A stretch of DNA of 64,000 nucleotides from an uncultured Holophagaceae bacterium (lineage in GTDB: Bacteria > Acidobacteriota > Holophagae > Holophagales > Holophagaceae). Numbering within the stretch: position 1 is the stretch's first letter; each line of letters starts with the position of its first letter. The stretch covers positions 1 to 64,000 of the forward strand of contig CAIZZF010000026.1 of assembly GCA_903937385.1 (NCBI GenBank), written 5' to 3'. Position numbers and translations under genes: made by a program. The notes beneath the pieces are model-generated. The model made no database searches. It worked only from the letters and a program-made list of their open reading frames with translations, and was not told the origin of the DNA. Of this stretch, positions 6,532-26,742 are shown in pieces.

Positions 6532-7416
6532 CTATTCAAGCCCACCGTTCTCGCCGCCAAACGTGAAGTAAAGGGCACTCTCGGCCATGGCGCCCCAGGC
6601 CCATTTATTCCACCATTCCCTTGGAATCCGCATCGACCGACCATCACACTTCGAACAGAGCATTTCTCCGTGGCAGCCGTGGAAGGAAACCTCCCTGAGT
6701 CCAGGAATCCAATCCTTCGGGGCAGCCACGAGGAGGGGGATCGTGAACCCTTCCTCGGTGCGATACGGGCCAGGGTCGATGCCCAGCGTAATGATCCAGG
6801 CACTCGCATCAACCGGAAGGAAGGGCCCGGCCAGCGACCAGTAATTGTCCTTTCGCAGGCTAGAAGGCAGCCTGCTTCGCCTAAGGCCGCGCTTCGTTAC
6901 CTCTTCCCAGTTAGCCAGAACGAATTCCCATGGAGCCAAGTGTGGCGGCAGGGAACTAATTGGTGGGACAAAGACAATCGTCTCGCCAGCCACCCCCGTT
7001 TTTTGGGGCATACCCCTATGCCTCCGCTGGTCCCAGTCGGAAGAGAGGGCCTTGATCTGCTCCTGGGTGGTGGCCAAGAAGATCTCAGGCAGGGTGTCCA
7101 CGAGGTCTCTCGAAACTCTGGCTGAGGTCTGGTTTGAAGTTGAGGCCTGAGCAATTGCCTCGACTTCATGATTACTCTTTTCTGCTCCCGGCATCGCGAT
7201 CGAGTCGGGATTTGCTCCGGGATCCACGGATTCCAAAGGCTCTTGGGTCCGCTCGGATTCCCTAGCCTCTTCCGGGTCGCCTTCCGGGCTTCCGTCCAGG
7301 TCGAGGTCCTCCACCGGGGAACGGGATTCCTCGGTCCTTTGGCCCGATGGCACGGATGGATCCTTCGCGGGCTCGACGTTGCTCCTCGCGCTGGTATAGG
7401 GAACCTTGGCTTTCAT
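6532..7416 (-). CDS. Hypothetical protein of the mobilization cluster, 294 aa
   Basis: The start ATG has a strong GGAGG eight bases upstream. The first third (residues 1-90) is low-complexity and rich in Glu, Asp, Pro and Ser, probably disordered. The C-terminal part (about 170-294) looks folded and holds a HGCHGEMLCSKC segment that could bind zinc, followed by Trp-rich residues (REWWNKWAWGAM). No family is recognised. It overlaps the 3' end of the relaxase gene by 155 bp in another frame, an unusually long overlap that supports co-transcription. A role in DNA transfer processing is plausible only by position. Confidence 0.55.
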   Translation of the reverse strand: MKAKVPYTSARSNVEPAKDPSVPSGQRTEESRSPVEDLDLDGSPEGDPEEARESERTQEPLESVDPGANPDSIAMPGAEKSNHEVEAIAQASTSNQTSARVSRDLVDTLPEIFLATTQEQIKALSSDWDQRRHRGMPQKTGVAGETIVFVPPISSLPPHLAPWEFVLANWEEVTKRGLRRSRLPSSLRKDNYWSLAGPFLPVDASAWIITLGIDPGPYRTEEGFTIPLLVAAPKDWIPGLREVSFHGCHGEMLCSKCDGRSMRIPREWWNKWAWGAMAESALYFTFGGENGGLE

Positions 7417-8395
7417 ACGCTTCCTCCAGAAGGGCTAGCAAGTTGACGGATGGAACGACCTTTGGCGACTTCGGTCGCATTGGAATGGACGGCATCTCAC
7501 GAGGCCGACTGAATGAAAGGGCAGCGTCAAAAGATTTACTTCCTGGTGCCTTCCGCTCGGCAGCAACGGCGGAGTCATGGTCCTGGATAGACCTGATATG
7601 CGGTTTCAGTTCCTTCCACTGGTATTTCTCGCCGAGGGTGCAGGCCTTCCACTTTTCACCCTCGATGCAATAGGAGACTCCCACCGTGTCTCCCTTTTTG
7701 TTCAGGAGGACGTCGATTCCATCCGCTGCCAGCCGTTCAGAGAAGTCCGAATAGAACAGGGGTGAGCCCTCAACTGGCCACAGTGCGTCCAATCTCGCCC
7801 TCGCGAGTTCCTTCTTGGTGGGCAACCTCCGATCCTCCATCTCCTTCTCAGATCGCGTTTTCCTAGGTCCCTTCCCTGCCCTCCCTGGGCCAACGGGTAT
7901 TACCTCAGGCACACTGCTCGTGAGTTCGCGGAGGCCATATTTTTTCTCAACCCTTCGGCAAACAGCCTGTGAAATGGCGCAGTCACGGAATACGTCGCGG
8001 AGCAGACTGCCATCGTTTCCGACCCGACAAAAAACGGGATGAACATGGTCGTGACCTTGATCCAGATGACGGATGGTCAGGAATGAATGCTTATCCCTTT
8101 CGAGACCATGAGCACTGATGAATTCATCATTGATGTCCTTCCATTTCCCATCTACAGACTCACTATTGCCGATCGCGAGGCTCCAGTGACGAAATGGGGA
8201 GACGACATCCGGTCGAAGGTCGCAATTGACTGACAGCAATTCTGCGAGGTATTTCACGCAATCTGGGGTATCGATCGTCGGTGGTAACAGAGCCAGGATG
8301 TCCGGAGAGGCATCGACAATCTCGGCGTTCCGGCCCACCAGAAGGTAGAACAGCGCTTTCTCCAGGCTCCGGACCTTAATTTTTTTGCTGATCAT
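7262..8395 (-). CDS. Relaxase / mobilization nuclease (MobA/VirD2-like, PF03432 type)
   Basis: A 377-residue protein that would nick oriT and pilot the single strand during conjugal mobilization. The relaxase metal-binding motif is visible at residues 110-125: H110, D112, H115, H117, H119 in HLDQGHDHVHPVFCRV. It is preceded by the family's conserved HWSLAIGNSES segment near residue 70. The catalytic Tyr is not certain; Y17 in the N-terminus is the likely candidate. The C-terminal third is Arg/Pro/Gly-rich and probably disordered. The start has GGGAG upstream and overlaps the mobC-like gene by 20 bp. No type IV secretion genes are seen, so it probably relies on a helper element. Confidence 0.8.
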   Translation of the reverse strand: MISKKIKVRSLEKALFYLLVGRNAEIVDASPDILALLPPTIDTPDCVKYLAELLSVNCDLRPDVVSPFRHWSLAIGNSESVDGKWKDINDEFISAHGLERDKHSFLTIRHLDQGHDHVHPVFCRVGNDGSLLRDVFRDCAISQAVCRRVEKKYGLRELTSSVPEVIPVGPGRAGKGPRKTRSEKEMEDRRLPTKKELARARLDALWPVEGSPLFYSDFSERLAADGIDVLLNKKGDTVGVSYCIEGEKWKACTLGEKYQWKELKPHIRSIQDHDSAVAAERKAPGSKSFDAALSFSRPREMPSIPMRPKSPKVVPSVNLLALLEEAYESQGSLYQREEQRRAREGSIRAIGPKDRGIPFPGGGPRPGRKPGRRPGRG

Positions 8396-9839: not shown

Positions 9840-12800
9840 ATGCTCAGCACGATTCTGCCAGGCACCCAGGTCCAGGCACGCGGCCTGGCTTGGGAGGTGG
9901 TGCACTCGGAACCGGCTGGCGGTGAGCACCGTTACCGTCTGAGGTGCACGGATGGCGACCTTCGAGGCATGGAGCTTGACCTCCTTTATCCCTTCGAGGA
10001 GATCACCCCCATCGTTACTGAATTGGACCCAAAACGGGCTGGTCGGCTTGCCCAGTGGCGGCTCTATCACGAGGCCTTCCTTTTGGAGCAGGCCCTCGGG
10101 CCCTCCGCGCTGCTGGCTGTGCAACCTGGGCGCTTGGATATTGCTCCTTACCAGCTCGTTCCCGTGATGCGGGCGATCCGCATGAGTCGTCCCCGATTGC
10201 TGCTCGCGGATGGTGTCGGACTCGGCAAGACGGTTGAAGCTGGCCTAGTCATCGCTGAACTCATCGCGAGGCGTCGGGCCCACCGAATCCTCATCGTGTC
10301 CCCAGCCGGGCCCCTGCTCGAACAGTGGCGAGGCGAGATGCGAGATCGGTTCGGGCTTCGGTTTGATACCGTGTGCAGCTCCGGGGAACTCCAGGAGCGT
10401 CGAAGGTCCCTGGTGCTGGGCGCGAATCCCTTCGACCACCTGTCCTTCTGCCTGACCTCGATCGACTTCGCCAAGCAGGAGAAGGTTCTCCAGGAACTGG
10501 AACGTACTGTTTGGGATCTCGTGATCATCGACGAGGCCCATCACTGCGTCAGCCTGGGTTCCGGCGGTGACTGGGAAGACTCCCAACGCAGGCGTCTGGC
10601 CGAGGTCCTGGCGAAGCAGACCGACGGCCTCCTTCTGCTGACTGCCACGCCACATGACGGGTTCGATGCCCACTTTGCCTCAGTCATGGAGTTGCTCGAT
10701 CCCAGCCTCGTGGATGGTCGTGGCGGACTCCGTGGTGAGCGATACCGCCAGCACGTGGTGCGTCGCTTGAAGCAGCACATCAAGGACCCAGAGACGGGCG
10801 CTCCCCTGTTCAAGGATCGCCAGGTCTTCCCCTGCCCGGTGAGCTACTCACCGGAATCTCATCCGCTTTTTGCGGCCATGCAACAGGCCCTGATGGCAGC
10901 CATCGCGCCGCGCCTGAAGCAGGCCGTGCGCCAGCAGAAGTTCGGCGAAGTTCTGGCCTTCGTATCGCTGCTGAAGCGGTCCGTCTCAACAGCCGCTGCC
11001 TGCCACAAAACCCTAAGCGTGATCCGGGACCGGTACGCGGAAATGGTGGCTCGGGGAGAATCTGAAACAGAGACCCGTCGTCAGCGCCTCAAGACCCTGA
11101 AGGATTACCAGCGGAGGCTTGAGCGGTTCGGTGCCTTGTCCTTCGAAGAGGAACAGGATCAAGCCTTCCTGGAGGCCGAGGACATGGCCTCGGACCTGCT
11201 CTCCAATGGCCTGGAAGAGTTTGCGCTCAAGATCGACGAGATCCAGCGGACCCAGCGTCGCCACCGCGAGCAGGGCAAGCGCATCCAGACCACGCGGGAT
11301 GCCCTCGATGCGCTTGTGACCCTGGCCGAAGAAGCCCTCCCGCAGGATCCCAAGCTGAGCGCCGTTCTCGACCAGGTCCAGGCCATCCGGCAGGCCAAGC
11401 CCGTGGCCAACATCCTGGTCTATACCGAGTACACGGACAGCCAGGATTCGCTCGTGGCCTACTTGAAGCCTGCCCTGGCACAGGGCTCCCTTTCAGGTGA
11501 AGTCTTGGCCATCAGTGGCAGTGATTCTGAAGCGGTCCGAACCTCCATCACGGAGCGATTCAAGACCCACGATGGCATCGTCCTGGTCAGTACCGATGCC
11601 ACCTCCGAGGGCCTGAACTTGCACGCTCGGTGCCACCACCTGATCCACTTGGAACTTCCCTATAACCCGAATCGGCTGGAGCAGCGGAACGGACGCATCG
11701 ATCGATACGGGCAGAAAGAAACCCCTGTGGTGCGCTACCTGTATCTCGCCGGGTCGTTCGAAGAGCGCCTGCTGATGCGACTGGTGGCCAAGTTCGAGCG
11801 CCAACGGGCGAGGCTCACCTTCGTCCCCAATACCCTCGGCGGGATGACAACGGACGATGCCCAGACCGTGCGCCTGCTTGAAGGCCTCTCCGAGGAGGAG
11901 AACTGCCTCTTCAAGACCGCCCCGAGGGAGATCCGGCTGGTCGAGGAAGAGCCTGAGGACACCACCACGCCTGCCTACCAGGAGTTGCTGGCCGAGGTGG
12001 AAAGAGCCATGACTGGGTTCGAACAGAAGGCCAAGTCCCATGCCTGGCTCGGGGACATTGGATTGAACGCGGAGGCCCGATTCGTCGCCGATGCCGGGAA
12101 GGCCCTGGAGGAAGGTGCGCGACTCAGCGATGTAGACCTTCTGAAATTCGTATGTGCGGCCCTGGAGGCAGACTCCCAGGTTGGCTCTATCCAAAATGGG
12201 ACGGATGGCACCGTCGAGCTTCGGCTACCCCCCTCCTGGAATCACGACCTCAAAGAGGTCCCCGGTTATGACGCCAGTGGCCCCACGATGCTGCTCACTT
12301 CGGACCGCGCCCGGACCCAGGACGAGCGTGAGCGACGCCTGGGTTTCCTCGGGCGAGCCCACCCAATAGTGCGCCGCGCCCTGTCAAGGGTGAGAAACAT
12401 CCGGTTCGGTGATGCGAACGCCTGGCTGGACCGCCGCGTGAGCGCTCTGGAACTCCCCATTCCGGAACCGGCCCTGCTCTGCACCTACCTTGGAGCCATC
12501 GAAAGTCCCCGTGGCCATGAATACGAGCGGGTCCTCGCCGTCCAAATCGAGCGCAGCGGGCGATGCACGGTCTATGACCATCCAGACCAATGGCTTCGGC
12601 TGGTGGACAGCGGTCGAGCCATCTCCCCAAAGGACCTATGGGAGGGACACTTCGAGTCCTGGGCCCAGGACTGGTCGGATGCACCAAAGGCAGCGGCCAT
12701 GGAAACCTTCAACCGGATTGCAGAACCGTGGTACTCCGAGGTGGCTCGTATCTCAGAGGATGAATACCGGGAACTGGAGGCCTGGTTGCGTACCCGAGTC

Positions 12801-13073
12801 GAGGCCATCTGCGGCCCCATTCGCCAGGCCCAGCAGGGCCTGTTCGAGGAAGCGACTGAACTGCCCCGGTGGGCTGTGCTGAGTGATCCCATGGAACGGC
12901 TCGCGGCCTTCGCCACAGACGGTAAGAACCCGGTCAGTGGCCGTCGGGAGGCCGATGGGATCATCCGCCTGTTCCGTCGGCGCGAAAAGGATCTGTTCCC
13001 CCACCGTGAGGCCCGCACCCTGCCCCCCTTCCCTTTGGGGTTGTTGATGCTCATGCCGGAAGGGGGGCGCTGA
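9840..13073 (+). CDS. SNF2-family helicase/ATPase, DISARM DrmD-like
   Basis: A 1077-residue superfamily 2 ATPase. Lobe 1 shows Walker A DGVGLGKTVEAGLV (about residues 120-135), DEAH box VIIDEAHHC (about 228-236) and motif III LLTATPHDG (about 263-271). Lobe 2 shows VSTDATSEGLNL and the motif VI block QRNGRIDRYGQ (about 580-625). Some 400 unrecognised residues follow. This is the RapA/SNF2 architecture of DrmD, which in class 1 DISARM accompanies an adenine methylase, as here. GGGAG precedes the start. The methylase ATG begins one base after its stop, so the genes are translationally coupled. It probably remodels or translocates on invading DNA. The DrmD name is by analogy and needs a profile search. 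Confidence 0.78.
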   Translation: MLSTILPGTQVQARGLAWEVVHSEPAGGEHRYRLRCTDGDLRGMELDLLYPFEEITPIVTELDPKRAGRLAQWRLYHEAFLLEQALGPSALLAVQPGRLDIAPYQLVPVMRAIRMSRPRLLLADGVGLGKTVEAGLVIAELIARRRAHRILIVSPAGPLLEQWRGEMRDRFGLRFDTVCSSGELQERRRSLVLGANPFDHLSFCLTSIDFAKQEKVLQELERTVWDLVIIDEAHHCVSLGSGGDWEDSQRRRLAEVLAKQTDGLLLLTATPHDGFDAHFASVMELLDPSLVDGRGGLRGERYRQHVVRRLKQHIKDPETGAPLFKDRQVFPCPVSYSPESHPLFAAMQQALMAAIAPRLKQAVRQQKFGEVLAFVSLLKRSVSTAAACHKTLSVIRDRYAEMVARGESETETRRQRLKTLKDYQRRLERFGALSFEEEQDQAFLEAEDMASDLLSNGLEEFALKIDEIQRTQRRHREQGKRIQTTRDALDALVTLAEEALPQDPKLSAVLDQVQAIRQAKPVANILVYTEYTDSQDSLVAYLKPALAQGSLSGEVLAISGSDSEAVRTSITERFKTHDGIVLVSTDATSEGLNLHARCHHLIHLELPYNPNRLEQRNGRIDRYGQKETPVVRYLYLAGSFEERLLMRLVAKFERQRARLTFVPNTLGGMTTDDAQTVRLLEGLSEEENCLFKTAPREIRLVEEEPEDTTTPAYQELLAEVERAMTGFEQKAKSHAWLGDIGLNAEARFVADAGKALEEGARLSDVDLLKFVCAALEADSQVGSIQNGTDGTVELRLPPSWNHDLKEVPGYDASGPTMLLTSDRARTQDERERRLGFLGRAHPIVRRALSRVRNIRFGDANAWLDRRVSALELPIPEPALLCTYLGAIESPRGHEYERVLAVQIERSGRCTVYDHPDQWLRLVDSGRAISPKDLWEGHFESWAQDWSDAPKAAAMETFNRIAEPWYSEVARISEDEYRELEAWLRTRVEAICGPIRQAQQGLFEEATELPRWAVLSDPMERLAAFATDGKNPVSGRREADGIIRLFRRREKDLFPHREARTLPPFPLGLLMLMPEGGR

Positions 13074-13074
13074 G

Positions 13075-16000
13075 ATGGCACTGAATCTCCGCGACTGCAC
13101 CTTCTTCGGTCCAGCCCTCCCCGAGCCTTTCGTCCTCGCCCAACTGGAAACGGAACTTGCCCGCCGGTCCCCGCTCCCCAAGAACACGGGGGAGGAAGGT
13201 CGGGCCCTCCAAGAGGCCTGGGATGCCTTCCGCAGGAAGTTGAGAGCCCTGGGTGAACAGGGTGGGGATTGGCGCGTGTTCAACCACGTGCTGGAGCCCT
13301 TGGCGGTCCACTTCGGCTACACCTCCTGGGAAGCCCACGACACAGTGGTGACCCGCGAAGGCGCCGAAGACGGTGGCTACCTCCTGAAGACGCCTGACGG
13401 CAAGAGGCTGAGGGCCTGGGCCACTGCTCTGGGCACGGATTTAGATGCCCCGAATCGTCGAGGGCGAGCCTACCGTTTCAGTCCCTCCAGGGTGGCCCAG
13501 CGCGTTCTGCTGGCCAGCGGGGAACGTGTCGGCCTCCTGACGGATGGCGAGGAACTGCGCCTCCTGATCTGCGATCCGGCCCGTCCCGATAGTCACATCT
13601 CCGTGTCATTGAGCCGATCCGGTGGGTGGCGAGAGGCTCGCAACGCCCCAGATTCCTACCGACTGTTCCGAGCCCTGGCTTCGCCTGTAGGCGTGGCCGC
13701 CATTCCTGACCTGACCGACGCCGCTCGATTGGCCCAGAGCCAGGTTACGAAGAAGCTGCGGGTGCAGGCCCGAAAGGCCATTGAGGGCTTCATCCAGGAA
13801 GTCATGAACAACCCTTCCAATCGGGAGGCTCTCGCATCAGCAGGCCCCACGGACCAGCTTGCGAAGGTGATGTGGCGTGAGGGCCTGATCTTGGTCTATC
13901 GCCTGCTCTTCGTCTTCAAGCTGGAATCGTCTGCCGATCCGGCGAGGGCCTTCAGCTTCGCGGCCACCAGCCTCTGGCGGAACACCTACTCACCCAATAC
14001 CGCCATGGCGCCGATCGTCCGCAAGGTGATCGACCAGGGGGCCGACAGCGGCGGTTTCCTGGAAAGCGGGCTTCGCGCCCTGTGGCGCATGTTCTCAGCG
14101 GGCATGAGTTCCAGCGAACTAGAGATCAAGGCCCTCGGGGGCATGCTCTTCGGGGAAGGAGCCACGCCGCTATTGGATCGGTTGAGTTGGGGCGAGCCTG
14201 CCGTCGCCCAGCTTCTGGATGCCCTCCTCTGGACACCAGGGGATGGGCGGATAGAGCGGGAGCGCGTGCATTACGGTGCGCTCGATGTGGAAGATTTGGG
14301 CCGAGTCTATGAGGCCCTGCTTGAACTGGAACCAGGCATCACCACCGAACCCATGTGTCGCTTACGCCGGGCCAAGCTGGAAGTGGTTGTGCCCAGGACC
14401 CAGGGCAATGCCTATCGTGCCAATGTGCCGCAGGAGGAAACGGAAGCGGATGTCACTGAAGACGAGGAAGAGGATCAGGGGGATGAAGAAACCCCAACCC
14501 CCCGAGGCGCCACCAGGGTTGTGTTTATCGAGGACATCCCCGCAAACCGGTTCTTCCTCCGCGTGGGACTTGGCCGTAAATCGACCGGCAGCTACTACAC
14601 GCCCCATCCCTTCGTCCGCTTCCTGGTGCAGGAAACCCTGGGGCCCCAGCTTCTGGAACGCAGCCCTAAGGAAGATCCACAGCCCGAAAGGATCCTGGGG
14701 CTGAAGGTCATCGACCCTGCCATGGGCAGCGGCCACTTCTTGGTCGAGGCCTGCCGGTACCTGGGAGAGGCCCTCTATGAAGCCTGCCGCCTCTGCGATG
14801 AACTGGCCGTTCAGGCCGAGGATCAGGCAGCTAATGAATCTGGAGATGAACGCGACAAATTTCTGACCTATGCCCTCCAACTTAGAAAGCGGGTTCAGGA
14901 TCTACCCGATCCGGACGATGAGTTGATGGCCTACCTTCCGAGCCGAGTGGCGGAGGGTGAGGCGAGCGGATTGTCCCAGAAGAAGGCAGAAGCCTTGTGC
15001 CGACGCCTAGTGGCGGTTCACTGCCTTTACGGGGTAGACAAGAACCCTCTGGCAGTCGAACTTGCCAAGCTCTCCCTCTGGCTCGAAAGTTACGCCGAAG
15101 GATGGCCCCTGACATTTATGGATCATCGACTCATCTGCGGCGATTCACTTACTGGGCCCTTCTTCGAGCACCTGCTTACTTTCCCCAAGGGTGGAGAGAA
15201 GCTCGATGGGCTTTTCGCACAAGGGCTAACCACCCAACTTCGAGAAACACTCACTGCTGCCATGGTCCACGTACATGACCTTGAGGCTAGTGTGGGCAAA
15301 GATGTAGCGGATCTTGAGCACAAACATTTCGCCAAGGAGCAACTGGACCTCACCTTAACTCCTCTGAAGCTTCTCGCCGCTGCCTGGAGTGGTGGGGCCA
15401 TGCTCGGCGACGGATGTGATGACGAAGGTTACCAAGCACTGGCACAAGCTGTTGGGATGGCAGAGGACCTGAACCATGTAATTAGCCTGCGACCGAGGCT
15501 CCGAGAAATGGTGGATGTGGGACAAGAGGGCGTCCCTTTCGATTTGGCCTTCCCTGAGGTTTTCTTTTCTACGGAAAGAAGGCGAGGATTTGATGCAGTA
15601 CTCGGGAACCCGCCATGGGATCGCCTTAGGCCCTTTGAAAAGGAGTTTTTTGCAGGTTTTGATATCGGGATCTTGGATGCCAGAAATGCTCGGGCACGAT
15701 CTTCAGTAGTGAGTGCCCTGCTTGCCAGTGAAGAAATTAAAAATGGGTTTGAGACTTACAAAGCCGAGTTCCAAAGACTCGCGGCTGTGCATGGCACCCT
15801 ATACCCTCATGCACACGTTGAGATCGAGGGCATCAATGCTGGTAGGGGCAATGCAGATGCCTACATTCTCTTTGGATTGCGAGCACTTCAACTCACCTGT
15901 GCGCATGGGCTCGTTGGGCTAGTCCTACCCTCTGCATTCCATGCAAATGAGGGCGCAACTGGTTTGCGTCAACAGTATCTTAAACATGCTGTCCTGCATT

Positions 16001-17460
16001 GTTGTTTTTCATTTGAAAATCGAAAAAAACTATTCGAAATCGATTCGCGCTTCAAATTCGCCGTTGTCGTTCTTGGGGCAAAGGACAGTAGTGATGTGAC
16101 GCCCCAACGCCCCTTCCTGGTCCGCTTCTATCTTCAAGACGCGGGCTGGCTGTTTGCCCAAGAAGGTGCACTGTCTTACGACCAATCACTCGTAGCGGCG
16201 ACAGGTGGGAGCCACCTTTCCTTCGTCGAGTTAAAGACACCTGCTGACCTTGCTATCGCGCAGGTATGTCACGCGACAGGTATCACCTTTGGGAAGGCCT
16301 GCTCTTCGCAATCTCTACGTTTTAGCGTCCAAGCGGATGTCACTCGTGACTCGTGGCGATTTGTGGAATGGAATGATCGTGACGAGACGACACTCCCTTT
16401 GGATGAGGGCAAGACTCTTCATCAATTTACAGACCGTTGGCTATGGCCACCCAGGTTTGGGGTTCCACTCCAGCGTATGAGGGAGAAGCGTGATTGGCTC
16501 GATCGTGTTCGATTTTTCCGAGTGGCATTCCGTGGCATCGCAAGCTCGACTAACGAGAGAACTTCAATCTTCTGCATGTTGCCGCCAGGCTCGATCGTAG
16601 CCAACAGCGCACCAGTTGATGCTGCTCCTGCGGAAAGGACCAACGCCAGTGCATTGATTATTGTTGGTGTTATGAACTCTTTTATATCCGACTGGTGCCT
16701 ACGAATCAGGGCTTCGGCAAACGTCAATCAATTCATCCTGAACGGCGTTCCGTTACCAAAATTTTCACCTTTGATTGCATGTTTTTTAGCACACTCGTCG
16801 CTTCGCCTGACATGCAATCACGGCGGGTACGCTTCCCTTTGGGCAGAACAACTCAATAACATTTGGCGAGAGGCTGGGCCAATGCATTCCTGGCCGGTGT
16901 TAGAGAGTGGCGAGGAGCGTTGGGCTGTGCGCGCTGCAATCGACGCAGTAGTGGTAGATGCCTATGGCCTTGACCGCGAACAGTATGTCCATGCACTTTC
17001 AAGTTTCAGTCACAGGAGCTACACGCAGGCTCCAGAACTTTGCCTTGCAACTTTCGACGAGTTAAAAAAATTGGGCCTCGAAGCCTTCACCAAGAAGCAT
17101 GATCCCTACTGGGACATTCCCCTCAACGAGAACCTACCTGAGCCCGCCATCGACCTTCCCGTCCTTGGCGAGGAGTTGGACTCGCAAGCCCGGCTAGGCC
17201 CATTGTTCGATGGCATTCAAGAGGTCGTGACAGAAGGAAGACCTTCCGCTCGCAGACCCATCCAGAATGCGATCAACCCTGATGTCTTTGACCTTCTTGT
17301 CCGCCTCATCCAAGAACGCGGAGAGATCACTTCCGGCGATGCCCAAACGGCAACCGGCCTCGATGCCACAGGTGTCAGACCACTCCTTCGTCAGCTTGTG
17401 GATGAGGGGCATGCCGTGGTTGAGGGCCAGCGCCGGGGCACCAGATACCGTCGAGCCTGA
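13075..17460 (+). CDS. N6-adenine DNA methyltransferase, DISARM DrmMI-like / type IIG-like
   Basis: 1461 aa. An N-terminal region of about 480 residues, including a very acidic linker (near 455-480), precedes the methylase core. Core motifs are GSYYTP (about 503), motif I DPAMGSGHF (about 547) and motif IV NPPW (about 844). A specificity (TRD-like) region follows, and a winged-helix-like C-terminus (about 1400-1461) ends it. No PD-(D/E)XK motif is obvious at the N-terminus, so cleavage may be done by partners. Base use changes inside the gene: 36 of 60 G/C in the line at 14101, but 24 at 15721 and 26 at 16021, which points to exchange of the specificity region. It probably marks self DNA for the flanking helicases. 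Confidence 0.85.
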   Translation: MALNLRDCTFFGPALPEPFVLAQLETELARRSPLPKNTGEEGRALQEAWDAFRRKLRALGEQGGDWRVFNHVLEPLAVHFGYTSWEAHDTVVTREGAEDGGYLLKTPDGKRLRAWATALGTDLDAPNRRGRAYRFSPSRVAQRVLLASGERVGLLTDGEELRLLICDPARPDSHISVSLSRSGGWREARNAPDSYRLFRALASPVGVAAIPDLTDAARLAQSQVTKKLRVQARKAIEGFIQEVMNNPSNREALASAGPTDQLAKVMWREGLILVYRLLFVFKLESSADPARAFSFAATSLWRNTYSPNTAMAPIVRKVIDQGADSGGFLESGLRALWRMFSAGMSSSELEIKALGGMLFGEGATPLLDRLSWGEPAVAQLLDALLWTPGDGRIERERVHYGALDVEDLGRVYEALLELEPGITTEPMCRLRRAKLEVVVPRTQGNAYRANVPQEETEADVTEDEEEDQGDEETPTPRGATRVVFIEDIPANRFFLRVGLGRKSTGSYYTPHPFVRFLVQETLGPQLLERSPKEDPQPERILGLKVIDPAMGSGHFLVEACRYLGEALYEACRLCDELAVQAEDQAANESGDERDKFLTYALQLRKRVQDLPDPDDELMAYLPSRVAEGEASGLSQKKAEALCRRLVAVHCLYGVDKNPLAVELAKLSLWLESYAEGWPLTFMDHRLICGDSLTGPFFEHLLTFPKGGEKLDGLFAQGLTTQLRETLTAAMVHVHDLEASVGKDVADLEHKHFAKEQLDLTLTPLKLLAAAWSGGAMLGDGCDDEGYQALAQAVGMAEDLNHVISLRPRLREMVDVGQEGVPFDLAFPEVFFSTERRRGFDAVLGNPPWDRLRPFEKEFFAGFDIGILDARNARARSSVVSALLASEEIKNGFETYKAEFQRLAAVHGTLYPHAHVEIEGINAGRGNADAYILFGLRALQLTCAHGLVGLVLPSAFHANEGATGLRQQYLKHAVLHCCFSFENRKKLFEIDSRFKFAVVVLGAKDSSDVTPQRPFLVRFYLQDAGWLFAQEGALSYDQSLVAATGGSHLSFVELKTPADLAIAQVCHATGITFGKACSSQSLRFSVQADVTRDSWRFVEWNDRDETTLPLDEGKTLHQFTDRWLWPPRFGVPLQRMREKRDWLDRVRFFRVAFRGIASSTNERTSIFCMLPPGSIVANSAPVDAAPAERTNASALIIVGVMNSFISDWCLRIRASANVNQFILNGVPLPKFSPLIACFLAHSSLRLTCNHGGYASLWAEQLNNIWREAGPMHSWPVLESGEERWAVRAAIDAVVVDAYGLDREQYVHALSSFSHRSYTQAPELCLATFDELKKLGLEAFTKKHDPYWDIPLNENLPEPAIDLPVLGEELDSQARLGPLFDGIQEVVTEGRPSARRPIQNAINPDVFDLLVRLIQERGEITSGDAQTATGLDATGVRPLLRQLVDEGHAVVEGQRRGTRYRRA

Positions 17461-17585
17461 GAAATCCAGCCCTTCAGGGAATTGGTCACCTTTTGTCACA
17501 TCATGGACATTAAGGTTAGTTATGGAATCATGGAGGTTGAATCCTCCCTGCATGAAGCCATTGATCTGATTCCTCCGGAGCCGGT

Positions 17586-20500
17586 ATGTCTCTGAACCCC
17601 ATCACCGTCGTAGACCAGGTGCTTGAGGAATACCGCAGCTACATCTCCACGGAATTTCAGGCCCGCGACCCCCAGCTCCGGGCCGCCCTGGAGGCCGCCC
17701 TCGGCGAGGCTGGCTTTCTTGCCCAGGAACCTTTCTTTCAGGCGCACCGGGCCTTCCGCCCCGGCCAGCGGTGGCGGGATCTGGGTCTGGATGCCCGGCT
17801 GGCCCAGGTCATGGAAGCCCGGAGCGGGAGCCCCACCGCCTACCTCCACCAGAGCGAAGCCCTCACCCATCTGCTGGGCCCCGAGGCCGGGCCCCTGGTG
17901 GTCACTACGGGAACAGGTAGCGGCAAGACTGAGTGCTTCCTCCTTCCGGTCATCCAGAACGCCATCGAGGACTCGGTCAAGTTCCAGCGTTCGGGCGTGA
18001 CGGCATTGTTGGTCTATCCCATGAACGCCCTGGCGAATGACCAGGAAGAGCGCATCCGGCAGTATCTGGAGGAGTCTGGCCATACCCATGTGAAGGTGGC
18101 CCGGTACGACCGTTCCACCAAGGATGATGAGCGGCAGCGCCTCCGCCAGAACCCGCCCCACATCCTGCTGACCAACTACATGATGCTTGAATACCTGCTG
18201 GTGCGCCCCGCCGACCGGGACGCCCTGTTCGCGAACCATCGCTGTCGCTTCGTGGTTCTGGACGAGGTGCATACCTACCGGGGCGGCCTGGGCGCCAACA
18301 TCGCCCTCTTGTTCCGTCGCCTCCTGGCCCACCTCCGCAAAGCACGGCAGGACTGGGCCGCAGATAACCGGAGTGATCGGCGCAGGTTCCCCGAAGTGTT
18401 GCCCGTGGCCACCTCCGCCACGATCAAGAGCCTGGATGAGGCCAACTATTCGGCAGAGGAGATTCAGCGGCTTCGGGTGGAAGCGGTGCAGGAGTTCCTC
18501 GGGAAGCTGACCGGCATCCAATCAATCCGGTTCAAGGTGATCGGGGAGCAGTTGTGCGACCTGACTACACCGCCTGAAGCGAGATGGCCAGCAGCCCCCG
18601 TCGCAGATGTCACCCTCTCCCTGGGGGACGAGGCTGGCCTTCGGGCTACCCTTGCCCAGCTTGTGGGCAGCAGTCCTGAAAAGACCCTGGACGCACTCGT
18701 CCGCGAGGCTGGCGTGCTCTGGCACCTGAATGGCCTATTGGCCCGTCGGCCCATGTCCGTGAGCCAAATCGCCGAGCGCATTCGGGCCGAGGTGCCACAG
18801 CGTGCTGGCACCGACCTGGAGGCCATCCGGAAGGAAGTCACCACTGCCCTGGTGGTCGGTGCGGCGCTCCCGGAGGCCATGCCTGGAGGGCTGCGCCTCC
18901 GCGTGCACCGTTTCATCCGGGGTGGGTGGCGTTTCACACGATGCGTGGACCCTGGGTGCGGTCGCCTCTACCCGATGGGCGAGGAGCACTGCGAATGCGG
19001 ACATGTGGCCGCGCCGTTGTATCTCTGCCGCTCCTGTGGTGCGGATACCCTTCGATTCATAACGGGTGACAATGGCCCAGGGGAAGATGTCCTTCGGCCA
19101 AATGCCAACCGTCACAACGAGAATGAGTGGTTGCTCTATGACCGCAGCCGTCAGGAGCCCGAAGAGGAAGAAGAAGGGCTAGTCGGGGTCGAACAGCAGA
19201 TGCGTGGGAGGCAGGTTCTGGAAGGCAGTTTTGATCCAGTAGAGTGCCTGTTCTCGCCTACCGAAACCGACTATGCCATGCGGGTGGTGTTGGCACCTGC
19301 TAGGAACCGTTGCCTTGTGTGTGGAGGCACGGCTGGCGCACGGGATGTCATCACGCCGGTATCGCTGGGGACTTCTGCAGCCGTCCGGGTGATCGCTGAA
19401 GGACTGGTAGAAGGACTTGCAGAGCAAAACCATGGCCGCCCAGGCCACGATGGCAAAGAGCGGCTGCTGGTTTTCTCGGACAGCCGTCAGGACGCCGCCC
19501 ACCAGGCGCGATTCATCACCTATTCAGGCCGCTACGACCGAATGCGCCGCAGGGTGGTGCAGGCCCTGCGGCAGTTGCCCAATCGCCGTGGAACCTTGGA
19601 TGAGACCCTGACTCGGCTGGTGGCTCTTGGCGTGGAACGAGGGGACAACCCTCACTGTCAGGGGTTCGACAACGCTGCCTACCTTCCGAGCAATGTCCAG
19701 GCTAAGGCCCGAGCATGGGAAGAGGCCCCCCTTCTCGATGACCTCGCAGTCAGTACCGGCTACCGCGCCTCTCTGTTCAACCTTGGGCTTGTCGGTGTTC
19801 GCTACGAGCATCTGGATGCCTATGTGGCAGAACAGGGACAAGCCCTCGCGGATGCCTTGGGGATTACGACTCACCAGCTCCGATTCCTCAGCCGATGCCT
19901 GCTGGAAGAGATGCGCCGTCGTTCCGCCATCTCGCGCCCGATGATTTCCTTCCACCCCGGCAGTCCGAACTGCTCTGAGGAGTTCAAGGCACCGGCTGAC
20001 TGGGAGCGACGTATCAAGACGCCGAATGGATATGCCTGTGATCTTGAAGGCAATCCTGTCGGTTCCATCGATAGAAGCGAAGTGCCCGATGGCATCACAC
20101 ACCTGAACATCTTGCGTCGACCCAGGGCCGGTGGGCGAGGACCGAGTCTCGAACGGCTTTTCCGTCATCTGATGGAACGCATGGGTGGCGCTGAGGCCAC
20201 GGAGGAAGGGCTGCTTGGTGTGCTCGCATTCCTCACTCGGGGGCCCCGTCTTCTGCGGTCAAATGCACTGCATGGGTTCAGGCGTCCCCGGAACCTGCTT
20301 CAAATTAATGCGGACACCGTGCTGCTTGAATTGATCGCCCCCACGGATCGCTATCGCTGCTCGATCTGCAATGTCCGGATGCCGTGGGTGGTGGATGGCA
20401 GCCCGTGCCCGAAGTGCCGTGGCAGCCTTCAGCCCTGGGCGGACGAGGAAGTCAGTCGGAACCGATACGTCCAGCGCATTCTGAACCCCGACATCATGGC

Positions 20501-22928
20501 CTTGGTGGCTGGAGAGCATACCGCCCAGATCACCGGAGATGACCGGAACGAATTGGAGGCCAAGTTCAAGGCGCCACCACCGGGTGGCCCGACGGGGAGG
20601 GGCGAGGCGGGCCTTCGGTCCACGATCAATGTACTGGCGTGTTCGCCGACCCTTGAGATGGGTATCGATGTGGGTGGGCTGGATGCCGTGGTGATGAGAA
20701 ACATCCCACCGCGCCCCGACAACTACGCCCAGCGTGGGGGCCGCGCAGGGCGCCGCACTCGGGTTGGCATCGTTCTCGGCTATGCCCGTAGCACTCCGCA
20801 CGATGGCTACTTCTTTGATAAACCAGCAGAAATGATCGCCGGGGAAGTCCCTGCTCCAGGCGTGGGCCTGGGTAACCGGGATGTGGTCCTACGCCACCTT
20901 CACGCCATGGCCTTTGGATCTGCGGACCCTGGGCTTGCCGGGCGGATGGGTGACTACATCAACATCCAGGGGCAGATTGATGAGGCAAAGATGGAGGGCC
21001 TGATTGAGTCCGTTCGGGCCCAGTTTCCCCATGCCATCGACCTGGCACTAGATGCCTGGGGCGAAGATGTTCTTGGACCTGCGGGCCTCGGATCACGAGA
21101 GGCCCTGGAAAGGGTATTGGAACTACTGCCTGCTCGAATCCGGGACCTCTTCGACCGGGTGAGGATCCAGATCGTGAAACTCCAGGAGACCATTGACCGC
21201 TGGAACGAATTGGGCCGAGGCGACCGTTCGGCCATCCACGCCCAGGACCTCAAGCGGCGCCTTCTTGGATTACGTGATGACCGGAATGCGGGGGATGCGG
21301 ACGACCGAAGCAGTGGGCACCCGATGCGCCGCTTCGCCGAGTTCGGGATCCTTCCTGGATATGAGTTCCCGACTCAGCCCAGCACCCTCAGGTTGCTGAA
21401 CGACGAGCACGAAGAAGACCCCCTCACGGTGGCAAGGAGATTCGGCTTGGCTCAGTTCCAGCCCGAAGCTCTTGTCCATGCTCGCGGCCACCGCTGGCGC
21501 GTTGTGGGACTGGACCTGTCCTCACCATGGAATCCGAAGTCTCAGGAACCTGATTGGGTATATGTGCGGTGCAGGCGTTGCACCCTTAAATTCGACGCCC
21601 AATCGCCTGCCTGCCCGCGATGTGGTTCCGAGGAGGTCCTTGATGGACAGCGCGGAGGATATCCGGGTTACGAATACGGAGGCTTCCTGGCTACCAGGCA
21701 GGACACACCCGTATTGGAAGAGGAGGATCGCTTCTCCATCGCTTCTCTGGTGAGTTGCCACCCCCAGAGAAACGGGCGGGTAACCGCCCGATACCGGCTT
21801 GTCTCTGGGTGGGTTGCCGAGCTTCGAACCGCCGAGACCGTCCGCTGGGTCAATGAGTGGAAAGCACCTGCGGAAGCAGATCTTCGACAGGGGAAGCCCC
21901 TGCTCCATGAGGGAGCCAGGGGTTTCTATCTCTGCCCTAGTTGCGGCAAGAACCTCACCGTCCCCGATGAGGCGAACCCGAACGGCGCCCGTCGACGCCC
22001 GCGCCGGGCGGAGGGGCCTGATCAGTTCGGCCACGGGGGAGGATGTCAAAGGAGTGGACAGCCCCCGGTTCCTGCCGCCATCACCACATCCCTGCCAGCC
22101 ACTACCCTCAGGATCACGGTAGCCTTGCCCAGGCAGTTCGAGGAATCGGAATACCTGCGCTGGGGCTACTCCCTTGGCTATGCCCTCCGCACCGGACTCC
22201 GGCAACTCTACCTGCTGGACGGTTCAGAGATCGAATTCGAACTCGAACCCATGTGGGAGGAACGTGAGGGCGGAGGGACTCGCAAACTCGGATCCCTTAC
22301 CTTCATTGACCCTGCCGTGGGTGGGAGTGGCTTCCTGGAGCGCTGTGCAGAGGAAATGCACCTCGTGGCAAGACGGGCTATCGAACACCTGGATCACCCC
22401 AGGTGTGAGACAGCCTGCTACCGCTGCCTGAAGTCCTATGCCAACCAGCGGCATCACGATCACCTTTCCTGGCCGCACATCATGCCAGACCTAGAAATGC
22501 TCGCCGCCGAGCCCCCTGCCCCGCTCCCACCAGAACGCGGAGATGCCGATGACCCCAGGCCCTGGCTGGAAGCCTTTGATTCTGGCGTGGGATCGCCCCT
22601 TGAATTGAAATTCCTCCGCCTTTTCGAAAAGCATGGCCTGGAAGTCGAAAAGCAGGTGTCCGTGGGCCCAGATAGCACCAGCGCACCGATCAGCGCCGCA
22701 GACTTCCGTATGACTGGAACCAAGACCCTCATCTATGTGGACGGCGCTGCATTTCACACAGGGATGCGACTCCGACGGGATCGAGCCATTCGGGAAGCGC
22801 TCAGGAAGGGTGACATTGGGTGGACAGTGGTTGAACTTCGAGCCGCTGACCTGGCTCAAGGAGAGGCAGTGATATCGAAAATACGTGCAGCCGGCCGAGA
22901 ATTCAGTGCCAACGAAGGTGGAGCCTGA
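17586..22928 (+). CDS. Giant DEAD/DEAH helicase with DUF1998, zinc clusters and C-terminal nuclease-like domain (DrmA-DrmB fusion or DruE-like)
   Basis: 1780 aa. Lobe 1 has Walker A TGTGSGKTE (108-116), YPMNALANDQ (144-153) and DEVH (226-229). Lobe 2 has FSDSRQDAAHQARF (about 630), SPTLEMGIDVGG and QRGGRAGRR (about 1020-1060). Cys clusters lie near 455-485, 575, 920-940, 1335-1350 and 1450. CYRCLKSYANQRHHDHL near 1604 is the DUF1998 signature. The last about 110 residues carry an E..F, ADF, VDG and late E pattern like Vsr/DUF559-type endonucleases. In DISARM, helicase (DrmA) and DUF1998 (DrmB) are separate proteins; in Druantia they are one (DruE). It follows the methylase by 125 bp. Confidence 0.8.
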   Translation: MSLNPITVVDQVLEEYRSYISTEFQARDPQLRAALEAALGEAGFLAQEPFFQAHRAFRPGQRWRDLGLDARLAQVMEARSGSPTAYLHQSEALTHLLGPEAGPLVVTTGTGSGKTECFLLPVIQNAIEDSVKFQRSGVTALLVYPMNALANDQEERIRQYLEESGHTHVKVARYDRSTKDDERQRLRQNPPHILLTNYMMLEYLLVRPADRDALFANHRCRFVVLDEVHTYRGGLGANIALLFRRLLAHLRKARQDWAADNRSDRRRFPEVLPVATSATIKSLDEANYSAEEIQRLRVEAVQEFLGKLTGIQSIRFKVIGEQLCDLTTPPEARWPAAPVADVTLSLGDEAGLRATLAQLVGSSPEKTLDALVREAGVLWHLNGLLARRPMSVSQIAERIRAEVPQRAGTDLEAIRKEVTTALVVGAALPEAMPGGLRLRVHRFIRGGWRFTRCVDPGCGRLYPMGEEHCECGHVAAPLYLCRSCGADTLRFITGDNGPGEDVLRPNANRHNENEWLLYDRSRQEPEEEEEGLVGVEQQMRGRQVLEGSFDPVECLFSPTETDYAMRVVLAPARNRCLVCGGTAGARDVITPVSLGTSAAVRVIAEGLVEGLAEQNHGRPGHDGKERLLVFSDSRQDAAHQARFITYSGRYDRMRRRVVQALRQLPNRRGTLDETLTRLVALGVERGDNPHCQGFDNAAYLPSNVQAKARAWEEAPLLDDLAVSTGYRASLFNLGLVGVRYEHLDAYVAEQGQALADALGITTHQLRFLSRCLLEEMRRRSAISRPMISFHPGSPNCSEEFKAPADWERRIKTPNGYACDLEGNPVGSIDRSEVPDGITHLNILRRPRAGGRGPSLERLFRHLMERMGGAEATEEGLLGVLAFLTRGPRLLRSNALHGFRRPRNLLQINADTVLLELIAPTDRYRCSICNVRMPWVVDGSPCPKCRGSLQPWADEEVSRNRYVQRILNPDIMALVAGEHTAQITGDDRNELEAKFKAPPPGGPTGRGEAGLRSTINVLACSPTLEMGIDVGGLDAVVMRNIPPRPDNYAQRGGRAGRRTRVGIVLGYARSTPHDGYFFDKPAEMIAGEVPAPGVGLGNRDVVLRHLHAMAFGSADPGLAGRMGDYINIQGQIDEAKMEGLIESVRAQFPHAIDLALDAWGEDVLGPAGLGSREALERVLELLPARIRDLFDRVRIQIVKLQETIDRWNELGRGDRSAIHAQDLKRRLLGLRDDRNAGDADDRSSGHPMRRFAEFGILPGYEFPTQPSTLRLLNDEHEEDPLTVARRFGLAQFQPEALVHARGHRWRVVGLDLSSPWNPKSQEPDWVYVRCRRCTLKFDAQSPACPRCGSEEVLDGQRGGYPGYEYGGFLATRQDTPVLEEEDRFSIASLVSCHPQRNGRVTARYRLVSGWVAELRTAETVRWVNEWKAPAEADLRQGKPLLHEGARGFYLCPSCGKNLTVPDEANPNGARRRPRRAEGPDQFGHGGGCQRSGQPPVPAAITTSLPATTLRITVALPRQFEESEYLRWGYSLGYALRTGLRQLYLLDGSEIEFELEPMWEEREGGGTRKLGSLTFIDPAVGGSGFLERCAEEMHLVARRAIEHLDHPRCETACYRCLKSYANQRHHDHLSWPHIMPDLEMLAAEPPAPLPPERGDADDPRPWLEAFDSGVGSPLELKFLRLFEKHGLEVEKQVSVGPDSTSAPISAADFRMTGTKTLIYVDGAAFHTGMRLRRDRAIREALRKGDIGWTVVELRAADLAQGEAVISKIRAAGREFSANEGGA

Positions 22929-23028: not shown

Positions 23029-24765
23029 ATGTACTCCAAAATTCAAAACGATATCAAACAAAATTACTATCAACAGCAATTCCCAAACGACGGGCAGCGA
23101 TTCGTAGCCTGGTATGTACGAAACATACATGGACAGGATCCCAACCAGGCGCGTTACTGCATCACTGATGGCGCACTTGACAAGCAGATAGATGCAATCG
23201 TCATCGATGAAGACGCTCAGGCAGTATATGTTGTGCAAGGGAAATTCATTGGAGCCGGGACAGTCGATGCCACTCCTCTGCGCGAGGTGCTGTCTTCGTG
23301 GGTCCAACTCAAGGACCTGTCAGCATTACAAGAGAATGCCAATGCCAAGCTTAAACAAAGGCTCACAGACCTTTCGGCAGCATTAGAAGATGGCTATGAC
23401 ATCCATTTCGAACTGATTACAACCGGAGAACTAACCGAAGGCGCGCACAAGGACCTAGCGGCCTTTCAAAAGGAACTGGCCGAAGCAGACGATCTTCCGG
23501 CAACGCTGACTCTAGTTGATACCGACGAATTGTGGCGTCGCTACGAGATGGCGCTAGAAAAAGAAAAGCCCTTTCTAAAGCACCAACTGAAACTGGCTCC
23601 AGGGAAGTTCATGAGTATGGAAATCGCTGGCACATCAGTTGTGGTCGCAGCCATTCCATTGCGAGACTGTTTGGTTTTCCCAGGGATCAAGGATGGGGCC
23701 CTATTCCAGAAAAATGTGCGCCAATCACTAGGTCTGAGCAATAACGTCAACAAGCAGATCAAGGCAACGATTTATGGTGACCGGAATCGTGATTTCTTTT
23801 TCTTTCACAATGGTATCACCGCCATTTGTTCACACATGCAGATAGAAGGCGATACGCTCAGCCTTCAAGGGCTGAGCGTTGTAAATGGATGTCAATCACT
23901 TACAACCATTCTGTCGTGCAGTGAAAAGGTTAAGAAGCTGGATGACACCTTCGTTATGTTTCGGTTCTACGAGATTCCCCAACATGATCGGGCTGACCGA
24001 ATTAGCATTTCTACTAACTCGCAATCCACAGTTAAACCTCGTGATCTACGCAGCAATGACAAACGAGTACTGGCCTTGAAGAAAGCCTTCGAGCAGCGCT
24101 ATACGAGTGGACAGTTTCTTTCCAAACGCGGCGAAAAGGCTCTACCTGAAAAAGACCCTCAACGTGTAGTGGATCTTGGGAGTCTTGGCAAATACCTTAT
24201 GGCGTGGCACTCACAACGCCCGAACATTTCCTACAGCGAGACCAAAATTTTTGACAAATACTTCGAGCAGCTTTTCAAACGAGACTACACACCCGAGAGA
24301 ATTGCCGCGTTACAGGATTGGATGCAACTCATCTATGCTGGCTGGGGCAAGGACAACCCGCATGGGTTCAACGAGACCTTACTGGCTATGCGAGCCTATG
24401 CGCCATTCCATCATTTATATGCTATTTCCATGTGTTTTGCCGTTGCCAGTAAGCATATCGATCGTGTGCCCGCACCAGACCTAACCTGGCAGCAAGCTCA
24501 AACCAGTGGCATCTCAGATTGGGTGGTTTCTGTGGCCGCCACGGCACTCAATTTTGCCTTAGAAACCGCAGCCAACGAGTCGCAGCCAGGTGGCAAGGTT
24601 TTCAGCCCGGTTAACTGGATCAAGACCAAGTCCTGCCTAAGCGGAATCACCAACGCCATTCAAATGCAATTGATGATGATGCCGAATATGCCAGGCGGGA
24701 AGGAAAAACGCGATGCACTGGTCCTGGATACCGACGCATTTGAGTATCGATGGCAAGCGGACTAG
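23029..24765 (+). CDS. AIPR-family abortive infection phage resistance protein
   Basis: 578 aa. The N-terminal segment (FVAWYVRNIHG near 24-34, then DGALDKQIDAIVIDEDAQAVYVVQGKF near 49-75) is a restriction-endonuclease-like core of the type found in AIPR proteins: D, then VxxGK. The middle contains the family's DRNRDFFFFHNGITAIC and LSVVNGCQSLTTI blocks (about 250-295). Length fits the full family. AGGGGAT precedes the start. G/C content is low (24 of 60 in the line at 23761) compared with the helicase gene upstream, so it was probably acquired separately. It may be a self-limiting arm of the defence block; the mechanism of AIPR proteins is poorly known. Confidence 0.8.
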   Translation: MYSKIQNDIKQNYYQQQFPNDGQRFVAWYVRNIHGQDPNQARYCITDGALDKQIDAIVIDEDAQAVYVVQGKFIGAGTVDATPLREVLSSWVQLKDLSALQENANAKLKQRLTDLSAALEDGYDIHFELITTGELTEGAHKDLAAFQKELAEADDLPATLTLVDTDELWRRYEMALEKEKPFLKHQLKLAPGKFMSMEIAGTSVVVAAIPLRDCLVFPGIKDGALFQKNVRQSLGLSNNVNKQIKATIYGDRNRDFFFFHNGITAICSHMQIEGDTLSLQGLSVVNGCQSLTTILSCSEKVKKLDDTFVMFRFYEIPQHDRADRISISTNSQSTVKPRDLRSNDKRVLALKKAFEQRYTSGQFLSKRGEKALPEKDPQRVVDLGSLGKYLMAWHSQRPNISYSETKIFDKYFEQLFKRDYTPERIAALQDWMQLIYAGWGKDNPHGFNETLLAMRAYAPFHHLYAISMCFAVASKHIDRVPAPDLTWQQAQTSGISDWVVSVAATALNFALETAANESQPGGKVFSPVNWIKTKSCLSGITNAIQMQLMMMPNMPGGKEKRDALVLDTDAFEYRWQAD

Positions 24766-25056
24766 CTCTGATCTGCAATTTCAACTTCAACGCCAAAGGA
24801 GATGACCTTGCCTCCAGCAACATTCAATACACTTCCCCATTGTTCGGCACAAGGATGATTCGGATCATGACAACTACCGAACCAGGGAAACCATTCTGGC
24901 AATATCCGAAGGCATGGTGGAAGTTATGTGTATGCGACATCCCTTCCAAGGCAGAATTGACATAACATTCGCCGACATCTAACCCTATCACTCACTAAAA
25001 TCTCACCTGGATTGAATTTCGAGATCATGCAGGGAATTTCTGAAAGCGGATTTTCC

Positions 25057-26742
25057 ATGAAACTCAGCAAATTAAAAATTCAAAATTTTAGAGGTATCAA
25101 AACTCTTGAACTCGACCTCGATAGCACCACGGTGCTGATCGGAGAAAACAATTCTGGGAAAACCGCGATTCTAGATGCACTGCGCCTTTGTTTGAGAGAT
25201 TTGGGGCCACGGCGTGGGGTTGTGTTTGATACTTTTGATTTTCACCTGAAGGATGCTTCCGCCGACCCATCCTCAGCGGACCCAATCCAGATCACCATCA
25301 CCTTTTCCGAGGATGAAGAAGGCGATTGGGAAGCTCCGCTCGTCGGTCGATTCAATCGTCAACGGGTGCTTCAAGTTCACGCCGATGGTCGTAACCATTT
25401 GGTGCTGAGGGTCACATGCGCCTACAATCCCACCACACGAGATTTCGACCAGGATTGGAAATTTCTCGATCAGGCTGGCCACCCCCTCATGGCTGGGCCT
25501 GAGGCCCTTGGCACTCTTCAACGAGAAATTTCATACTATTACTTGGCTGCCCTCCGTGATGCGGCACGTCATTTCGATGCAAAGGGACCATTCTGGCGTC
25601 CATTCTTGAAGGACAGCCAACTCCCTGAAGAAAAAAAGGTCGAAATCGAGCAGAAACTGAAAGATTTGAATGACCTGGTTATTGATTCCCACACCAGTTT
25701 TGAGCAAGCACGAGATCGACTAAACAACCTCCAGCAGATAGTTCCCATGGCTTCGGGTGAAGCCGTTTCTATAGAAGCTGTGCCTGGGCGCATGTTTGAC
25801 ATGCTCGCCAAGGCACAGATCCACCTAAGCACTTCCACAGGCGCAAAGGTCCCAGTTGGCCGTCATGGGGAGGGGACGCAGAGTCTTGCCGTACTTATGC
25901 TATTTTCTGCTTTTCTTGAGGCTTGGCCGGGCGGTGCTCCCATTGTCGCACTTGAGGAGCCAGAGGCACACCTCCACCCATCTGCTATAAGGGCGCTCTG
26001 GGGAATTTTGTCCATGATATCTGGCCAGAAACTGATCTCCACTCACAGTGGCGACCTGCTGTCTGAAATAGATATCCACAACGTGCGTCGACTTGCAAAG
26101 ACCCAGGCTGGAATTGAATCCTTCCGATTACCGCCCGGCCTTCTTTCAGACGAGGAACAGCGTAAATTTAATTATCATGTTCGCCGAGTTCGAGGGGAGC
26201 TATTGTTCGCCCGATGTTGGCTATTAGTTGAGGGGGAAACGGAGTCATGGGTCTTTCCTTCAGCAGCTCGTGCCAGTGGGATCGATTTGCACCGGTACGG
26301 TATCGAGATTGTTGAATACAGCCAGTCTGATGTCGGATTACTCGCAAAGGTTGCGAATGCATTTGGAATCCCTTGGTACTGTGTGATGGACGACGATTCA
26401 GGGCGCGCCAAGTATGAACCCGGTGTGATGGCAAATCTTGGGTCAGCCTTGGAGGCGGACCGCGTCACATTCCCATACCCAAACGCCGAAATCCACCTTC
26501 TAACACATGGCTACGACACAGTATATGCGCCGCTCATGCCAACACAGAACCTTGCAAGGGTGACGAAAGTTATAGGAACTCCAGGATATTGGGAGGAGTT
26601 CGCGTGCAATTTGCCTAGCAAGGCCAAGACACGTGGGGCTGCGGCAGTAGCCTCCGAGATGGAACGACGTGGTGTCACAGGAGTCACTGCGGAACTGGCT
26701 GCAATTCTAAACAAAATTGTCGCCCTTGCTGGAGGTGTTTGA
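25057..26742 (+). CDS. gajA: Gabija GajA: OLD-family ATPase-TOPRIM endonuclease
   Basis: 561 aa from the ATG at 25057, where the family N-terminus MKLSKLKIQNFRGIKTLEL begins; an in-frame ATG exists at 25012 without a better binding site. The ABC-type ATPase has Walker A GENNSGKTA (about 29-37) and the Walker B segment VALEEPEAHLHPSA (about 295), followed by LISTHSGDLLSEID. A C-terminal TOPRIM nuclease starts near 388 (LLVEGETES) with the acidic DDDSG near 448. In Gabija, GajA tetramers nick phage DNA when nucleotide pools fall, and act with GajB. The stop overlaps the gajB ATG by one base, the standard two-gene layout. G/C content is lower than in the helicase genes. Confidence 0.9.
   Translation: MKLSKLKIQNFRGIKTLELDLDSTTVLIGENNSGKTAILDALRLCLRDLGPRRGVVFDTFDFHLKDASADPSSADPIQITITFSEDEEGDWEAPLVGRFNRQRVLQVHADGRNHLVLRVTCAYNPTTRDFDQDWKFLDQAGHPLMAGPEALGTLQREISYYYLAALRDAARHFDAKGPFWRPFLKDSQLPEEKKVEIEQKLKDLNDLVIDSHTSFEQARDRLNNLQQIVPMASGEAVSIEAVPGRMFDMLAKAQIHLSTSTGAKVPVGRHGEGTQSLAVLMLFSAFLEAWPGGAPIVALEEPEAHLHPSAIRALWGILSMISGQKLISTHSGDLLSEIDIHNVRRLAKTQAGIESFRLPPGLLSDEEQRKFNYHVRRVRGELLFARCWLLVEGETESWVFPSAARASGIDLHRYGIEIVEYSQSDVGLLAKVANAFGIPWYCVMDDDSGRAKYEPGVMANLGSALEADRVTFPYPNAEIHLLTHGYDTVYAPLMPTQNLARVTKVIGTPGYWEEFACNLPSKAKTRGAAAVASEMERRGVTGVTAELAAILNKIVALAGGV

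Follow-up and report, generated by a model that had tools for sequence, protein, structure and literature searches.

ARMADA was defined by Bell et al. (bioRxiv 2025, PMC12458937), who called it a missing link between DISARM and Druantia. Its core comprises ArmA, a BrxHII-like SNF2 helicase; ArmB, a PglX-like methylase; and ArmC, a Druantia-like YprA helicase with a C-terminal Vsr nuclease (PMC12458937). Only two types are recognized in that work; Type II adds ArmD, a RelE-UvrD fusion, and the reverse (A-B-C) order within Type I belongs to cyanobacterial and archaeal members (PMC12458937). The published phage tests cover Type II only, which needs ArmD, a protein absent from the locus described here (PMC12458937). 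In E. coli, Type II ARMADA protects against 13 of 80 phages, requires all four genes, works without abortive infection or cell killing, and is synergistic with a neighboring Druantia III system (PMC12458937). Starting at 3' tails, the related helicase-nuclease DruE unwinds DNA and cleaves it (PMC13192584).

In the window, by which we mean the whole 64,000-nucleotide stretch of DNA that was analyzed, we found three intact, co-directional open reading frames on the + strand, with ATG starts and no internal stops (1077, 1461, and 1780 aa). The first, armA (9840..13073, +), encodes a SNF2/RapA-like (BrxHII/DrmD-like) helicase of 1077 aa with SNF2 and Helicase_C domains, Walker A K130, and DEAH D231; its top PADLOC model (2023 set) was DrmD at 375 bits. 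It is followed after 1 nt by armB (13075..17460, +), which encodes a PglX/DrmMI/Eco57I-like DNA methyltransferase of 1461 aa with an Eco57I/N6_Mtase domain, the SAM motif DPAMGSG (G551), and NPPW from residue 845; here the top model was DrmMI at 290 bits. A junction of 125 nt (17461..17585), the site of an accessory-gene slot that is empty in the window, separates armB from armC (17586..22928, +). ArmC is a YprA/DruE-like helicase of 1780 aa with Walker A K114 and DEVH D226, and its top models were DruE1 (403 bits) and DruE3 (391 bits). It carries DEAD, Helicase_C, and MZB (MrfA Zn-binding, DUF1998) domains in one chain, the last at 22176..22430 (+, Pfam PF09369). These open reading frames, Pfam-type domains, and PADLOC matches bear out what the initial annotation had read from the sequence, namely, the order SNF2 helicase, methylase, and DUF1998 helicase and the presence of helicase and zinc domain in a single DruE-like polypeptide of 1780 residues. 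That annotation was also right that no phospholipase-D-like DrmC is adjacent, as we found no PLD match among the scanned neighbor genes. Split DrmA and DrmB genes, a Druantia partner gene, and a RelE-UvrD ArmD were likewise missing next to the trio, and a genome search found no MZB protein in the host besides ArmC. What the first reading missed is the nuclease: the last ~115 residues of ArmC form a Vsr-type PD-(D/E)xK domain (22560..22910, +; residues ~1659-1775), recognized by fold match and conservation.

An adjacent BrxHII/RapA-like helicase, PglX-like methyltransferase, and YprA-like helicase are the genes by which ARMADA is defined, and all three are in the window. The tested locus of E. 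coli ATCC 8739 and the Rhodococcus Type I locus gave PADLOC matches of the same kind as the window, with ArmA DrmD/DpdE-like and ArmC DruE-like. We found that K130 and D231 of the window ArmA align with K136 and D236 of E. coli ArmA, which are essential (PMC12458937), and that K114 and D226 of ArmC align with E. coli ArmC residues whose mutation abolishes defense. The SAM motif of ArmB (G551) also aligns with that of E. coli ARMADA, and NPPW is present at 845. We then compared the proteins in trees with reference loci of Type II (E. coli ATCC 8739, L056; an E. coli plasmid copy, L064; and six more, L108-L113), Type I in both gene orders (including L044-L055), Druantia, and bona fide DISARM class 1 loci (L096 and L106, each in a related genome). 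The ArmC tree covered 59 sequences and 1291 columns, with SH-aLRT and aBayes supports from a fast search; in it, the window clade, Type I, and Type II shared a node (SH-aLRT, 96.4; aBayes, 1) with Druantia, DISARM, and MrfA outside. The initial annotation had proposed comparing PADLOC profiles and trees; the outcome was neither DISARM nor Druantia, the trio falling with ARMADA in a clade of its own. We concluded, as a prediction from sequences and structural models, that the locus is very likely an ARMADA anti-phage system (ArmA-ArmB-ArmC) whose deep lineage is a third one, next to the two published types (I and II). The class is known; the lineage is apparently undescribed. The suggestion that the trio is an intermediate or distinct type thus holds in part. 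The link between DISARM and Druantia stands, and a separate lineage is upheld by all three proteins and a cysteine signature. The claim of distinctness from described systems fails at the level of class, because Bell et al. had already published the link under the name ARMADA, whose three genes are the same and whose gene order matches in Type II and in some Type I loci (PMC12458937); the finding is therefore not a new system in kind. Because the 2023 PADLOC models label their proteins DrmD, DrmMI, and DruE, loci of this clade are readily mistaken for defective DISARM or Druantia systems.

The cysteine clusters of ArmC, which are zinc modules, differ in how widely they are shared. C481/484/576/579, C1329/1332/1343/1346, and C1607/1611/1614 are common to all three ARMADA lineages. 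C925/928/941/944 and C1450/1453/1487 occur in the window clade, Type II, Druantia, and ~10% of Type I sequences. C453/458/469/471 is found in the window clade and in five of seven sampled Druantia, is absent from Type II, and occurs in hardly any Type I. In the Vsr domain, E1673, D1706, D1719, and H1724 are invariant in the window clade and Type II, whereas many Type I sequences have lost some of them. The window ArmC keeps the acidic and histidine residues of this nuclease, which is predicted to be active. A structural model of residues 1-1100 (pLDDT, 83.4) matched MrfA (Z 25.0, 420 residues). In that of residues 1101-1780 (pLDDT, 81.6), the canopy fold matched MrfA (Z 14.1, 239 residues, 4.3 Å) and DrmB (Z 10.5), and the last domain matched I-Bth0305I (Z 11.3), ngo0050 (Z 10.4), and E. 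coli Vsr (Z 9.9, 106 residues, 3.1 Å). A helical stretch is predicted after RecA1, at about residues 349-427, which is the place of the published BrxA-like insert (PMC12458937); no signal came from profile comparison with the BrxA proteins of the phylum. The PDB entry that best matched ArmC in sequence was 9tu7 (a DEAD/DEAH box helicase, 2108 aa), and ArmB had no PDB sequence match.

The window clade formed one group in the ArmC tree (SH-aLRT, 100; aBayes, 1), as did Type I (100/1) and Type II (100/1), and the ArmA and ArmB trees placed the window lineage in the same separate clade, on long stems. Its members come from Myxococcota, Acidobacteriota, Planctomycetota, Cyanobacteriota, Chloroflexota, and others, with ArmC identities to the window of 47-73%; two looser relatives (L031 and L033) lie at the base. 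We applied AU tests to the order of the three lineages and found that most arrangements pass; only a grouping of Type I with Type II was rejected, and for ArmB only (p 0.0095). A scan of viral contigs for a phage origin returned two distant relatives only (29-34% identity). A photosystem search, which asked whether the host might be a cyanobacterium, was negative. Among 36 same-genus genomes, MZB proteins were present in just three others, and the contexts of two of these showed DISARM class 1 in one and a Druantia III-like locus in the other. On a Pseudanabaena plasmid (L057, 12575-24503), an ARMADA locus of the window clade stands tail to tail with a Druantia III-like operon, an echo of the E. 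coli pairing.

Other defense genes lie downstream of the trio. Directly 3' of armC is an AIPR/AbiU-like gene (23029-24765, +), no counterpart of which turned up next to armC in the related loci that we examined. It is followed by a complete Gabija system, GajA-GajB (25012-28625, +; PADLOC, 660 and 765 bits), and by one run of genes (28662-34495, +) for an SbcD-like phosphoesterase, an SbcC/RAD50-like ATPase that also matched LmuB (80 bits), and a RadC-JAB protein, possibly a further defense operon. We rejected the downstream UvrD protein as an ArmD: it is the GajB of Gabija, its helicase domain starts at residue 9 and so leaves no room for RelE, and the gene that follows armC is AIPR, not ArmD. 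A tyrosine integrase gene lies at 34642-36360 on the strand opposite to the defense genes. Adjoining it is a tRNA-Ser-like 3' end with CCA (36530-36561), whose last 20 nt are repeated at 36740; within 36530-36830, a GC-rich hairpin comes after each copy, together with a partial copy in inverted orientation. We found no further copies of this 3' end elsewhere in the assembly, and the repeated end beside the integrase is a likely attachment site. Upstream of the defense genes, a MobA/VirD2-like relaxase gene (7262-8392) points to an integrated mobilizable element. GC content is 0.50-0.65 up to about 40 kb of the window and 0.66-0.72 beyond. The trio lies on an integrated element that is poor in GC; Gabija is part of it too, as is an integrase next to a tRNA-Ser 3' end. 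This agrees with Bell et al., in whose view integrated elements carry such islands (PMC12458937). The window also encodes an MbnB/TglH/ChrH RiPP-modifying enzyme (2498-3346; 279 bits). Elsewhere in the genome there is a BrxA homologue (L122, contig C5, 104805-105347; 141 bits), from which the host probably also has a BREX system.

The trio might be a plain reverse-order Type I ARMADA of the cyanobacterial and archaeal sort, with no separate lineage. Its A-B-C order agrees with this, as does an ArmC of 1780 aa, a Type I-like length without the extra C-terminal domains of Type II; the Type I loci of Rhodococcus (L060), Nostoc (L061), and Natrinema (L063) have the same ArmA/ArmB/ArmC core and an ArmC of ~1.7-1.8 kaa. 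Fast ArmC trees join the window clade to Type I (SH-aLRT, 100), and Bell et al. may have counted the clade in Type I, because they recognized only two types (PMC12458937). However, in AU tests a position sister to Type I was not significantly better than the alternatives, and the tests rejected placing the clade with reverse-order Type I, represented by Thermus and five plasmid loci, for ArmA (p 1.6e-69), ArmB (p 0.014), and ArmC (p 8e-41). From these tests and the trees, the window proteins lie outside the Type I clade. Type I further differs in its usual order, C-A-B, in an ArmC identity of ~26-31% to the window in the genome loci compared, and in a usually replaced Vsr histidine, and ~90% of its sequences lack three of the window's zinc clusters (C453-471, C925-944, and C1450-1487). 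We therefore consider membership in plain Type I unlikely. Type II, represented by E. coli ATCC 8739, shares with the window the A-B-C order, the C925-944 and C1450-1487 clusters, and all Vsr active-site positions. In contrast to the window, it has a fourth gene, ArmD (RelE-UvrD), directly after armC, lacks the C453-471 cluster, and has an ArmC of ~2.1-2.3 kaa with further C-terminal domains.

The gene order and best matches, DrmD and DrmMI, could also be read as class 1 DISARM, which has the same pair of SNF2 helicase and adenine methylase, with DrmA and DrmB fused and DrmC lost. DISARM class 1 has separate DrmA and DrmB proteins plus the PLD protein DrmC, whereas ArmC is DruE-like, reaches at best 54 bits with the DrmA model, and carries its nuclease as a fused Vsr domain. 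In addition, the true DISARM class 1 genes of a same-genus genome (G013, L096) branch far off in the ArmB and ArmC trees. We rejected this reading, which trees and domain content make hardly credible. A Druantia system that took up a DrmD-DrmMI gene pair would explain why the best PADLOC matches of ArmC are DruE models, the fused YprA-type helicase, and the C453-C471 module shared with five of seven sampled Druantia. Druantia nevertheless lacks the SNF2 helicase and methylase pair and has other partner genes and a PLD or inactive nuclease rather than Vsr; no DruA-D, DruH, or DruM/F/G match was found among the scanned neighbors, and the ARMADA ArmC proteins group apart on the node described above (SH-aLRT, 96.4). 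This origin is very improbable and was rejected on the same grounds. Membership in Hma was also rejected, as HmaA scored 232 bits versus 375 for DrmD and no other Hma model was among the listed neighbor matches. Finally, the trio may act not alone but as part of a larger composite system that takes in the AIPR, Gabija, and SbcCD-like genes farther downstream, since all genes from 9840 to 34495 are co-directional and ARMADA II is synergistic with its Druantia III neighbor in E. coli (PMC12458937). But none of the related loci examined has AIPR or Gabija homologues beside armC, and Gabija by itself is a complete known system, so we regard a composite as improbable.

For the preferred reading, a three-gene ARMADA, the most likely mechanism is that ArmB marks host DNA and that ArmA and ArmC attack unmarked DNA. 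The ARMADA II mutants (PMC12458937) and the biochemistry of DruE (PMC13192584) support this scheme. ArmB would methylate host DNA in a specific context and so mark it as self. ArmA and ArmC, probably with ArmB as recognition subunit, would load on unmodified incoming DNA. ArmC would take up DNA that is single-stranded or 3'-tailed, thread it through the helicase and zinc canopy, and nick or cut it with the Vsr domain. The phage would be stopped directly and not by killing of the cell. The methylase may do more than mark self, because mutation of NPPW in ArmB abolishes defense in E. coli (PMC12458937). The genes that relatives carry in the slot between armB and armC probably add a second layer, an effector or toxin that can be exchanged; in the window the slot is empty, and AIPR and Gabija genes follow armC instead.

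We counted slot contents from the gene listings of the loci. The slot was filled, over about 1.3 to 7.6 kb, in 21 of the 23 clade loci with armB and armC in view (window included); it was empty in the window and in L029. Occupants included SLFN_AlbA_2 (as in L030), GmrSD (as in L019), RelE/ParE-UvrD, HEPN-RES, AbiEi, PLD, AAA with DUF234, TPR-EAD7, and ImmA/IrrE. Where armB was off the contig, SIR2, AbiEii, and RES genes lay directly upstream of armC. The RelE-UvrD proteins of the slot are 24-27% identical to E. coli ArmD. Genes in this position are not peculiar to the window clade: reverse-order Type I loci (L061, L062, and L070) have them, and so does one Type II locus (L108). In a same-genus genome (G027; L095, 7839-18447), a Druantia III-like DruE and a 1014-aa partner stand beside a RelE-UvrD protein that has 52% identity with the ArmD of E. 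coli, so that the ArmD cassette is not confined to ARMADA. We infer that slot contents act together with ARMADA. It is possible, and we propose it only tentatively, that the clade is an undescribed third ARMADA type. Such a type would have Druantia-shared zinc modules, a helicase near the ancestor of the ARMADA and Druantia proteins, and a swappable armB-armC cassette (GmrSD, SLFN, RelE-UvrD, RES, AbiE, SIR2, or ImmA), ArmD being one fixed cassette.

A variable slot inside the operon suggests that the core is modular and that the ArmD of Type II belongs to a set of interchangeable partners. The link between DISARM and Druantia was proposed from two types, and a third lineage with a fuller set of zinc modules would allow a sharper test of it.
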